A program made the position numbers and the translations under genes. From the NCBI GenBank assembly GCA_018065925.1, contig JAGHSI010000055.1, positions 1 to 35,660 of the forward strand: DNA of 35,660 bases, in the 5' to 3' direction. Positions 11,031 to 16,722 of this stretch are shown here, piece after piece. The notes beneath the pieces are model-generated. The model was not told the origin of the DNA, searched no databases, and saw only the letters and a program-made list of their open reading frames with translations. Every line of letters starts with the position of its first letter. The stretch's first letter is position 1. This DNA comes from Candidatus Limimonas coprohippi (lineage in GTDB: Bacteria; Bacillota; Clostridia; Oscillospirales; Acutalibacteraceae).

Positions 11031-11258
11031 ATGGATTTATCAGTGCTTATGAGGGGCAAACAGGCGTGGGATACTTTTAAAACAAATCATCCAAAGTTCC
11101 CACAGTTTTTAAATTATATAAAGACAAAAGGCCTTCCAGTTGATTCTGAGATAAATATTACTGTCACATATCCAGATGGGCAGAATGTCAAATCAACAAT
11201 AAAAGTTAAACCGGAGGACCTTGAACTTCTCTCTATGCTTCAAGGCATGATGAACTGA
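11031..11258 (+). CDS. hypothetical protein, 75 aa
   Basis: ORF with RBS-like gttaggag upstream; tightly linked between the ybaK-like gene and DUF1294. Confidence 0.6.
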   Translation: MDLSVLMRGKQAWDTFKTNHPKFPQFLNYIKTKGLPVDSEINITVTYPDGQNVKSTIKVKPEDLELLSMLQGMMN

Positions 11259-11259
11259 T

Positions 11260-11529
11260 ATGGAAAAGACTATTATTATTTTCTATATACTTATTAATAT
11301 CATTACGTTTTCTCTTTATGGTATTGATAAGTGGAAGGCGAAGCGCCATGCTTGGCGTATACCGGAGGCCACTTTACTCGGCTTCGCCGCCATCGGCGGA
11401 GGCCTCGGCGCCCTCCTCGGCATGTCCGCCTTCCACCATAAAACAAAACATAAAAAGTTCACTTTAACAGTTCCAATAATGTCTACTGTACAAGTTCTAC
11501 TTATGGTGTTATATTTTATTCAAAGATAA
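11260..11529 (+). CDS. DUF1294 family small membrane protein
   Basis: YGIDKWKAKRHAWRIPEATLLGFAAIGGGLGALLGMSAFHHKTKHKKF is the DUF1294 signature. Confidence 0.88.
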   Translation: MEKTIIIFYILINIITFSLYGIDKWKAKRHAWRIPEATLLGFAAIGGGLGALLGMSAFHHKTKHKKFTLTVPIMSTVQVLLMVLYFIQR

Positions 11530-11543
11530 GAGGAGGTACGCTT

Positions 11544-11684
11544 ATGGGACTTTTTGATAAGATTCTTGAACCAATTGAAGATGAAGACGGAAACGTAGAG
11601 CACCTTTTTGACGAACCTCTCTTTGAAGAGGATCTCGACTTTGTGGATGAACTTGAGATACTTGATATGCTTTTTGATGATTAA
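11544..11684 (+). CDS. 46-aa hyperacidic small protein (not in the supplied ORF track)
   Basis: ATG at 11544 after AGGAGG; MGLFDKILEPIEDEDGNVEHLFDEPLFEEDLDFVDELEILDMLFDD; followed by an intrinsic terminator. Confidence 0.65.
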   Translation: MGLFDKILEPIEDEDGNVEHLFDEPLFEEDLDFVDELEILDMLFDD

Positions 11685-11702: not shown

Positions 11703-11732
11703 AAAGACCGCCGCTGGCGGTCTTATTTTTAT
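11703..11732 (+). terminator. rho-independent terminator
   Basis: AAGACCGCC-gct-GGCGGTCTT followed by aTTTTT. Confidence 0.88.
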
Positions 11733-12187
11733 TTCATATTTTCAACTGCAATTTTTAATGAATCAATTGCAGTTGATAATTTATCAAGATCATCGAGAAT
11801 CTTACTTATTTCTTTTTGCTCGGTGTCGCTGATAACATCGTCAACGCAGATGGCACGGAGTCTCTCTTCCTGTGATTTTATATTATCGAGAGCGACACTT
11901 ACCTCAAGTGCAACACGGGCGAGGTCTTTAACTTCAAGTTCTGGCACATCTCTTATTCCGATAGGGCATTCATGAGAGCAGTAGTAGTTGCGAAGTTCAG
12001 CTTTTTTGTATGCATCTGACATGGCGTTGACATGATCAGGCTGAATTCTTGTATCACCGTTTTCAAGCTTCTCAAGTGTGCTAGGGGAAACGCCGATAAG
12101 CTCGCTGGCTTTTTCTCTTGAAAGATCAAGTTCCTCTCTAGCTAATTGATATACAGTCTTATCATCCTTAACTGACATTCTGCCCAT
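11729..12187 (-). CDS. XRE-family helix-turn-helix regulator with C-terminal helical region
   Basis: YQLAREELDLSREKASELIGVSPSTLEKLENGDTRIQPDHVNAMSDAYK is a Cro/CI-type HTH; RBS cggagg upstream of ATG at 12187. Confidence 0.85.
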   Translation of the reverse strand: MGRMSVKDDKTVYQLAREELDLSREKASELIGVSPSTLEKLENGDTRIQPDHVNAMSDAYKKAELRNYYCSHECPIGIRDVPELEVKDLARVALEVSVALDNIKSQEERLRAICVDDVISDTEQKEISKILDDLDKLSTAIDSLKIAVENMK

Positions 12188-12233
12188 TTTGTGCCTCCGT
12201 TAATAATAAATATGTAATTATAATAACACAAAT

Positions 12234-12267
12234 AAATCTATTTCGCTATTTTTTACGGAATAGATTT
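12234..12267. repeat. inverted repeat in the XRE/DUF4230 divergent intergenic region (candidate operator)
   Basis: AAATCTATTTCG - N10 - CGGAATAGATTT; arms complementary except one T/G pair. Confidence 0.6.
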
Positions 12268-12340
12268 CCTATCTCGCCATCGATTACGTAGAGAAAAGCA
12301 TCTAAAAGGCACATAATGTAGTCGTAAGGAGGAGATAAAA

Positions 12341-13006
12341 ATGAGAAAAATACTTACAATCATCTTAAGCATAACAATGGTAGCAGTTGCAACCTGCGGA
12401 GTTATTAAATATAGGGCAAACGCAGCAATGGATGTAGCAGATGAAGTTGCTGATAATACAAAGGATCTTGCAACTGCAATTGTCTCAGCAGCAAGCACAA
12501 AAGAAATAGTAAATGTTACAAATGTAGAAGTTAAACACGAACTTCAGGAAATCGGTGAGATTTCAACATATGAACTTAAATATGAGGGCACAGATGAGAT
12601 CAATAGCCACAAAGAGAAAATCGGTGTAAAACTTCCTGGTTCAACATATCAAATCAATATCGCATACAAAGGTACAGTAAAAGCTGGATACGATTTTGAG
12701 GAAGTAGAAGTAACAGTAGATAACGAGAATAAAGAGATTACTGTAAAGCTTCCAGAAGCAAAGATTATTCAGAGTGGTGTTGATAATAAGAACTTGAAAA
12801 TCACAGAAAAGACAAGCTTTATAAGCAAAGCAATCAATCCGATTGGTGCGGGCACAGTTTCAAATCGTATCAAGTTGATTGAGAATCAAGAACTTGATAA
12901 GGCAATCAACCAGGATGAAATCAAAACAAAGGCAAGAGAAAACGCAGAGCAACTTATAAAAGAAGTTCTTACAAGCTTTGAGTACGAAGTAGTATTTGAG
13001 GGGTGA
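12341..13006 (+). CDS. DUF4230-like protein with N-terminal membrane anchor/signal
   Basis: N-terminal hydrophobic segment MRKILTIILSITMVAVATCGVIKYRANA; ELQEIGEISTYELKYEG...VDNENKEITVKLPEAKI pattern; RBS aaggagga. Confidence 0.72.
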   Translation: MRKILTIILSITMVAVATCGVIKYRANAAMDVADEVADNTKDLATAIVSAASTKEIVNVTNVEVKHELQEIGEISTYELKYEGTDEINSHKEKIGVKLPGSTYQINIAYKGTVKAGYDFEEVEVTVDNENKEITVKLPEAKIIQSGVDNKNLKITEKTSFISKAINPIGAGTVSNRIKLIENQELDKAINQDEIKTKARENAEQLIKEVLTSFEYEVVFEG

Positions 13007-13010
13007 TAAG

Positions 13011-13130
13011 ATGACCCCTAAACAGAGAGTAGAACTCATAAGACTCAAAGAAAAAATAGAAAGACAAAAAGAATACAGTGAAAAAATCGGCGTAGAAGTC
13101 AAAATGAAAAGGAGACAAAACAATGAATAA
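13011..13130 (+). CDS. 39-aa basic, highly charged small protein (not in the supplied ORF track)
   Basis: MTPKQRVELIRLKEKIERQKEYSEKIGVEVKMKRRQNNE; GAGGGGTGA upstream; 3' end overlaps the next ORF start at 13123. Confidence 0.5.
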   Translation: MTPKQRVELIRLKEKIERQKEYSEKIGVEVKMKRRQNNE

Positions 13131-13323
13131 CGATTATAACAACAAAAGAAAAATGTACGGTATCCTCGCAATCCTCTCAGCAATCCTCTTTGTAAGCCCA
13201 GTTGATCTTATGACAGGCCTTCAGGTAGACGATATCGGATACCTCTTAACAACAATCATCACAACAATTCTTAACTTCAAAATGGCACAGCCGCCAAAAA
13301 ACTACCAGGAGGTAGACAACTAA
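13123..13323 (+). CDS. 66-aa membrane protein with a truncated DUF1232/YkvA-like motif (tentative)
   Basis: AAGGAG RBS; ILSAILFVSPVDLMTGLQVDDIGYLL resembles the YkvA SPxDLIPD...xxDD motif. Confidence 0.6.
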   Translation: MNNDYNNKRKMYGILAILSAILFVSPVDLMTGLQVDDIGYLLTTIITTILNFKMAQPPKNYQEVDN

Positions 13324-13324
13324 C

Positions 13325-13477
13325 ATGGGATTTCTTTGGACAGTAATTGGAATAGCTTTGGTAATAGCTTTCTTCGATTTCTTTGTCGTAGCAATTAAGC
13401 TTACTATCAAGTTTTGGCTTGCTTTTATTATAATCTCCCTAGCGATCAAACTGATTGCAAAAATCCTATTTCTCTAA
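13325..13477 (+). CDS. 50-aa hydrophobic small membrane protein (not in the supplied ORF track)
   Basis: ATG at 13325 after AGGAGG; MGFLWTVIGIALVIAFFDFFVVAIKLTIKFWLAFIIISLAIKLIAKILFL. Confidence 0.6.
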   Translation: MGFLWTVIGIALVIAFFDFFVVAIKLTIKFWLAFIIISLAIKLIAKILFL

Positions 13478-13497
13478 CCCCCAAACGAGAAATTAAA

Positions 13498-13530
13498 GGG
13501 AAAGCGCCCCGCAAGGAGCGCTTTTTCTTT
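13498..13530 (+). terminator. rho-independent terminator ending the DUF4230 cassette
   Basis: AAAGCGCCCC-gcaa-GGAGCGCTTT (one mismatch) followed by TTCTTTT. Confidence 0.8.
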
Positions 13531-15930: not shown

Positions 15931-16722
15931 TTATGAGCCAGATGGCATCATAGCTATAATTCTGCCGGCAAAATCATTGAAGTTTTGTGTTTGAAGAATG
16001 ACTTTACCCGGACCGGTAAGCTTTGTGAGGAAGAGACCTTCACCACCAAAGAAGATGTTGCTAAAGCCCTTAACTGTCTCAACTTCATAACTAACAGTTT
16101 TTTCAAAACAAACTACGTTACCAGTATCAACCTTAAGCACTTCGCCTGGTGCAAGATCTTTTACAATTTGGTCACCGTCGATTTCAAGGAACACATATCC
16201 GTCACCTTTGATGTCTTGAAGAATAAATCCTTCACCGCCGAAGAGACCAGCTGTGAAACGCTTTGTAAATGCTATACTAACATCAATGCTATTCTCTCCG
16301 CAAAGGAAAGCTCTTTTCTGAGCGATGATACCATTAGTTCCAGTAAGGTCAATAGGAACGATTGCACCTGGAACAGTTGAACCAAATGCGACTTTTGCAC
16401 CATCTTTTGTAGATGTGTATGTTGCCATAAATAAAGATTCACCAGCAAACATACGGCCAAGGCCCTTCATAAGACCACCCTTTGTGTTAGTGGTCATAGA
16501 AATACCTTCAGTCTGCCATACCATACCGCCACTCTGCGTGTATACAGAGTCACCAGCATTAAGTGAAACTTCAACTGCAGGAACTGTTCTGCCTATCAAT
16601 TCATACTTGAGTTTTTGCTTTGGTTTTGCTGTTGGAACTGGGGCATCACTGAGTTTTGTTCCGCATTGAGTGCAGAATTTAACGCCGTCATCTAAAACGG
16701 CTCCGCAATTTGTACAAATCAT
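15931..16722 (-). CDS. zinc-ribbon plus TIGR00266/AIM24-like protein
   Basis: MICTNCGAVLDDGVKFCTQCGTKL zinc ribbon; GDSVYTQSGGMVWQTEGISMTTNTKGGLMKGLGRMFAGESLFMATYTS is AIM24/TIGR00266-like. Confidence 0.88.
   Translation of the reverse strand: MICTNCGAVLDDGVKFCTQCGTKLSDAPVPTAKPKQKLKYELIGRTVPAVEVSLNAGDSVYTQSGGMVWQTEGISMTTNTKGGLMKGLGRMFAGESLFMATYTSTKDGAKVAFGSTVPGAIVPIDLTGTNGIIAQKRAFLCGENSIDVSIAFTKRFTAGLFGGEGFILQDIKGDGYVFLEIDGDQIVKDLAPGEVLKVDTGNVVCFEKTVSYEVETVKGFSNIFFGGEGLFLTKLTGPGKVILQTQNFNDFAGRIIAMMPSGS

Follow-up and report, generated by a model that had tools for sequence, protein, structure and literature searches.

The XRE regulator SinR of Bacillus subtilis is tuned by SinI, a very small protein encoded next to it. 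In the phage-shock and Lia systems (PspA, PspC, LiaI-LiaF, Toastrack and Band-7/flotillin), a local regulator likewise lies beside small membrane proteins, and flotillin/Band-7, LiaF and Toastrack count among the partners of the envelope response known as phage shock (PMC11237479). In Actinobacteria, the ClgR-PspA-PspM-PspN operon encodes a Cro-like HTH regulator together with membrane-stress proteins (PMC11237479). XRE regulators are not mentioned in two surveys of phage-shock systems (PMC11237479 and another).

Here, we describe a cassette in which an XRE-family regulator is encoded beside a microprotein and several membrane proteins. It lies in a 35,660-nucleotide stretch of DNA (the window) from the Candidatus Limimonas group (Acutalibacteraceae), the assembly of which comprises 1.33 Mb and is 96% complete. 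The cassette is probably the form that a local regulatory unit takes in Limimonas, namely an XRE–microprotein switch that controls membrane or envelope-stress proteins. Its layout (Table 1) is as originally predicted: a minus-strand XRE gene diverges from a plus-strand DUF4230 gene and three micro-ORFs, each at the expected position and each start preceded by a Shine-Dalgarno-like stretch. The plus-strand genes are tightly packed, with a gap of 4 nt between the DUF4230 and 39-aa genes, an overlap of 8 nt between the 39- and 66-aa genes and a gap of 1 nt before the 50-aa gene, and the set is bounded on each side by a strong terminator hairpin. A search for RNA elements gave no Rfam match. Upstream of the cassette, positions 11031-11684 hold a short gene set (a 75-aa protein, DUF1294 and a 46-aa acidic protein), which is kept alongside the cassette in the sister species G206. 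An AIM24 protein whose N terminus carries a zinc ribbon is encoded 2.5 kb from the cassette, at positions 15931-16722 (minus strand), and the region before its gene showed no strong operator-like site. The related unit at locus L098 includes AIM24 in its cargo.

Table 1. Features of the cassette and of two protein families at related loci. Positions without a locus prefix are those of the window.
Feature	Position	Strand	Remarks
Intrinsic terminator hairpin	11704..11724		between upstream gene set and XRE 3' end; z -4.5
XRE-family regulator, 152 aa	11729..12187	-	HTH at residues ~16-61
Putative XRE promoter, -10 (TATAAT)	12217..12222	-	predicted from the sequence
Inverted repeat AAATCTATTTCG-N10-CGGAATAGATTT	12234..12267		likely regulator binding site (predicted)
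Core dyad TATTTCGC-N8-ACGGAATA	12239-12262		within inverted repeat
Possible third half-site TATCTCGC	12270..12277	+	putative weak match to the third TATTTTGC half-site elsewhere
Putative operon promoter	12289..12317	+	-35 TAGAGA, -10 CATAAT; -10 kept in sister species
DUF4230 protein, 221 aa	12341..13006	+	one N-terminal membrane segment; exchangeable cargo
39-aa basic microprotein, family F39	13011..13130	+	consensus MxPxxRIxAIRLxEKxxxNPEYAKxLGIEVK
66-aa membrane protein	13123..13323	+	shortened distant relative of DUF1232
50-aa hydrophobic protein	13325..13477	+	last gene; present in G206 and G040
Intrinsic terminator hairpin, operon end	~13495..13530	+	z -3.7
~313-aa coiled-coil family	L098:2139-3089; L129:4638-5579; L134:1789-2715; L142:2760-3701
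78-85-aa protein	L012:4467-4724; L064:2327-2563; L066:4983-5219	-; +; -

The regulator matches Pfam HTH_3 (1.7e-10). The HTH is followed by the motif Y-C-x3-C-x-I-G (C70 and C74), which is invariant in 17 aligned relatives and could sense redox state or a metal. At the thresholds used, XRE relatives with this motif were found in 22 of 200 genomes of the family and in 24 of 290 genomes of the order. The unit was defined as an XRE gene with the motif and an adjacent gene of the microprotein family F39, and the window contains both. The best PHROG match of the regulator, to phrog_6499, spans its full length (6.8e-39, 133.8 bits, residues 6-150 of 152), more distant relatives lie beside integrases, in Faecalibacterium phages or in integrative elements, and the location of the cassette differs between species. 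These features would suit the regulator of a phage or mobile-element remnant that has captured its neighbors, which was one reading offered by the original prediction. It is improbable, as no integrase or phage structural gene surrounds the window copy or its close relatives, most of which occupy ordinary chromosomal contexts, and as regulator, microprotein and dyad stay together across the families of the order in the manner of a functional host unit.

The widely conserved core of this unit is the regulator and the 39-aa protein. The most conserved partner of the regulator is the 39-aa protein, which the original prediction had not recognized, and not DUF4230 or the 50-aa ORF. The 39-aa protein belongs to a family, F39, with members of 33-52 aa that match no Pfam, NCBIfam or PHROG family convincingly. 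An F39 profile trained on five Limimonas sequences only was run on 34 loci of other genera, 32 of them with an XRE gene, and retrieved 12 relatives in 11 loci (E 9e-13 to 6e-3); the reversed-sequence control gave 0 matches. Ten of the 12 are on the same strand as the XRE gene, 132-167 nt downstream of it. A blind, class-level search of 196 whole genomes produced one new member, which is outside the order of the window and follows an XRE gene at a distance of 155 nt. Two other whole-genome searches are not counted as blind, because most of their matches were profile members that had been chosen beside an XRE gene. No confident F39 member away from an XRE gene was found in about 400 genomes. The pairing of F39 with the regulator reaches beyond the genus, into further families and one other order. 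Against the model, roughly two in three XRE loci read outside the genus showed no F39 gene. A match of the F39 profile to RecA in the PDB was discarded as an artefact, no aligned stretch passing by itself.

Since F39 is encoded in the regulated operon and is tied to the regulator, it is most simply viewed as a feedback partner of the latter. The 39-aa ORF could also be a leader peptide that couples translation to the next gene, rather than a protein partner of the regulator: its stop overlaps the 66-aa start in the window and in the sister species, and F39 often opens the operon. We consider this unlikely, however, as the amino acid pattern is conserved across genera despite differing operons and next genes, and as the window 39-aa gene comes second, after DUF4230.

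The intergenic region between the regulator and the operon contains an inverted repeat, which is found at the same place in the sister species; two further members of the genus share its TATTYC-N12-GRAATA geometry, also at this place. No pattern close to the dyad occurs elsewhere in the 1.33-Mb genome. Among 18 regulator/operon gaps, the pattern TATTT-N14-AAATA matches at no fewer than nine of ten positions in eight, versus 0-4 at other spacers, and its summed score of 152 exceeds all shuffles (mean 127.6, maximum 136), the pattern itself having come from an all-spacer dyad count and thus having been chosen partly on the data used to score it. In 11 of 13 loci, the dyad center lies 74.5 nt upstream of the predicted transcription start; in the window the distance is 73.5 nt, all starts being read from sequence. 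The -10 used ranked first in nine loci and lower or tied in L064, L066 and L051, and L052 did not fit the fixed spacing with the site first chosen. Promoter scan counts by themselves were not above those of shuffled sequences.

Alignment of the gaps on the -10 reveals a third half-site, giving the element TATTTTGC-N8-TGGAAATA-N8-TATTTTGC. A matrix of this element scored 37.9 in L046, 36.5 in L135, 33.1 in L131, 29.8 in L132, 24.8 in L141, 22.1 in L140 and 20.4 in L048, all of them loci outside the training set, versus a shuffled maximum of 12.7 in any tested non-training locus. It also found a site scoring 23.7 before the hydrophobic gene of L087, a locus with no XRE gene nearby and one elsewhere in its genome. 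The window dyad itself has nine of ten TATTT-N14-AAATA matches (p = 0.09 by itself). With a dyad-only matrix from other genera, it ranks 44 of ~71,000 positions and is the best in its own intergenic region. Its sequence is divergent, and geometry, position and conservation within the genus are the grounds on which it appears to belong with the others.

Activation is typically seen where a regulator site keeps a constant spacing of about seven helical turns to the promoter, and the fixed distance from dyad to -10 suggests activation here, possibly via higher-order assembly on the three half-sites. In the window, the dyad also overlaps the predicted -35 region of the XRE gene, which together with the divergent arrangement suggests autoregulation.

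Recurrence had been proposed as a check, and the cassette was found in other Limimonas species, in differing chromosomal surroundings. In the sister species G206, the cassette is complete and its left flank matches that of the window. G040 has XRE, DUF4230, 41-, 61- and 50-aa genes in different surroundings; G205 and G207 have XRE, DUF4230, 43- and 69-aa genes; and G160 and UBA1227, which lack DUF4230, have XRE with a 39-aa-like and a 74-aa gene. None of the seven Limimonas loci read has lost the 39-aa or the 66-aa gene. A search of 84,980 species genomes found relatives of the 66-aa protein only in these six, which are all metagenome assemblies, as are most genomes compared; one is labelled Candidatus Limimonas egerieequi (Acutalibacteraceae). 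Several Limimonas genomes without the 50-aa gene have a 78-85-aa protein (...FIEMYAHARAQGKRFDWSKLLPPQPSYYKIGID...) accompanying the unit, the 85-aa form of which had no Pfam match.

Relative to G206, pN/pS is 0.13 for XRE, 0.32 for DUF4230, 0.26 for the 39-aa gene and 0.08 for the 66-aa gene, and the 50-aa ORF has four synonymous and no nonsynonymous differences, its protein being 100% identical. Decay of the micro-ORFs, named at the outset as a sign against the prediction, is therefore not seen: the frames are not lost and pN/pS is not near 1 in this comparison. Judged by these substitutions, the micro-ORFs are more than chance frames and are under purifying selection. Nucleotide identity to G206 is 95-98% over 13251-13490, as compared with 52-87% along most of the rest compared, and the jump has a sharp edge inside the 66-aa ORF. 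It may be a recent recombination patch, an assembly artefact at a contig end or extra constraint at the nucleotide level, so that the complete identity of the 50-aa protein in this pair may partly reflect recombination.

The DUF4230 protein scores well above the curated cut-off of PF14014 (E 1.4e-21, 77.6 bits versus 27). Its membrane segment was assigned from hydropathy, and the core of its AlphaFold model has a pLDDT of 83.5. Fold comparison with two models gave no PDB match at E <= 0.001; the weak matches were mostly to TULIP lipid-binding proteins (BPIFA1, juvenile-hormone binding protein) with TM-scores of ~0.16-0.32, and are a lead only. Clean deletion of the Streptococcus mutans DUF4230 gene SMU_1803c caused no significant biofilm defect (PMC13041782). 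No such regulator adjoins the DUF4230 genes of the family's other genera, and the window DUF4230 therefore looks like recruited cargo, in the slot that flotillin or AIM24 fills elsewhere. The same observation could mean that the XRE gene just happens to lie close to DUF4230 and the small ORFs, which would then form an ordinary set of chromosomal genes. This is very improbable, as XRE adjoins DUF4230 at five loci of the genus in different contexts, a recurrence that largely refutes it, and as the micro-ORFs appear to be under purifying selection and the dyad is unique in the genome.

Searches with Pfam, NCBIfam and PHROG-type profiles gave no match for the three window micro-ORFs. The 66-aa protein has no Pfam match of its own, DUF1232 (PF06803) included; its residues 14-61 are 46% identical to a 106-aa protein of another genus that passes the DUF1232 cut-off. 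The 50-aa protein occupies the same last position as hydrophobic proteins of 70-78 aa at related loci and is thus their positional counterpart. Homology between them found no support, as a profile built without Limimonas does not find the window protein. Three of the five new whole-genome matches of the 70-78-aa family adjoin an XRE gene (L096, L097 and L098).

An XRE gene accompanied by small hydrophobic ORFs, and a weak, partial HTH similarity of this XRE to antitoxins of the MqsA and HipB type, could point to a toxin–antitoxin or toxin-like module in which the 50-aa protein is toxic and is restrained by XRE and its neighbors. Such a module, also raised in the original prediction, is rather implausible here. 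No toxin or defence family reached a meaningful score in Pfam, NCBIfam or PADLOC and no toxin partner was found for the XRE; of the seven Limimonas loci, three lack the 50-aa ORF and a fourth is cut off by a contig edge, with the XRE, F39 and 66-aa genes retained; and the neighbors elsewhere are flotillin and AIM24.

The cargo varies between related loci. L096 has the order XRE, F39, flotillin, DUF2500 and hydrophobic protein, and L098 has XRE, a 316-aa coiled coil, AIM24 and hydrophobic protein. L050 combines XRE with SPFH, LiaF-like and Toastrack DUF4097 proteins, and in L048 flotillin is divergent from XRE. The coiled coil of L098 is common to L129, L134, L142 and L145. This family of ~313 aa recurs beside the XRE regulator, and the member tested had no Pfam family above cut-off. 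An RNase_T protein follows F39 in L147, with a similar protein in L133, and some XRE loci of other genera have no obvious membrane cargo.

Of the self-contained accessory unit first proposed, it is the XRE-controlled membrane module that is supported, by recurrence in different contexts, purifying selection on the micro-ORFs, the conserved dyad and the membrane-stress genes found in the slot elsewhere; the phage-remnant and toxin-like versions are not. In the model that we favor, the XRE regulator with its invariant C-x3-C would bind the dyad ~74 bp upstream of the start of the adjacent operon. The operon encodes the ~40-aa microprotein, its putative partner, along with membrane proteins, here the DUF4230, DUF1232-like and 50-aa hydrophobic proteins. 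The microprotein most likely binds and tunes the regulator, by analogy with SinI and SinR, and a signal may be sensed through the cysteines. Both signal and output are most likely tied to membrane or envelope stress, a role suggested by gene association. More tentatively, and with somewhat less than even confidence, these loci may represent an undescribed class of one-component envelope-stress switches in Clostridia. This would consist of a cysteine-containing XRE activator, a dedicated ~40-aa microprotein, an operator of three half-sites at constant spacing from the -10 and, as a part of the same tentative reading, interchangeable membrane-protection cargo comprising flotillin, AIM24, DUF4230, DUF1232-like and small hydrophobic proteins.

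The unit offers a testable common context for DUF4230, the 39-aa family and the small hydrophobic proteins. As the microprotein has only 33-52 aa, the regulator–microprotein pair is easily missed by annotation. Its novelty is relative to the literature searched and to Pfam, NCBIfam and PHROGs; flotillin, AIM24 and the operon were not found together in that literature, which excludes most subscription papers and preprints.

The likeness to SinR/SinI is by analogy: in both, a very small protein is encoded next to an XRE regulator, which in the window unit it is proposed to tune. The cargo differs, and none of 16 F39 members matched the SinI family in Pfam. The regulators of phrog_6499 resemble the window XRE over its full length; unlike them, the window copy and its close relatives are chromosomal, with F39 and membrane genes, and not in prophages. 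The ClgR operon shares the combination of an HTH regulator with membrane-stress proteins, whereas the window unit has F39, lacks PspA and has its C-x3-C regulator in a separate or divergent transcription unit. Flotillin/SPFH, LiaF and Toastrack, which are known from the phage-shock and Lia systems, are cargo in relatives of the window unit, and no PspA/IM30 or PspC core domain was found in the window ORFs or in the related cargo scanned, coiled coil included. In contrast to these systems, the regulator is an XRE protein with C-x3-C and not PspF, LiaRS or HAAS-PadR, and it comes with a dedicated ~40-aa microprotein and with DUF4230 and DUF1232-like cargo. If the model is correct, the unit would be an envelope-stress switch of gut Clostridia that stands outside the phage-shock and Lia systems.
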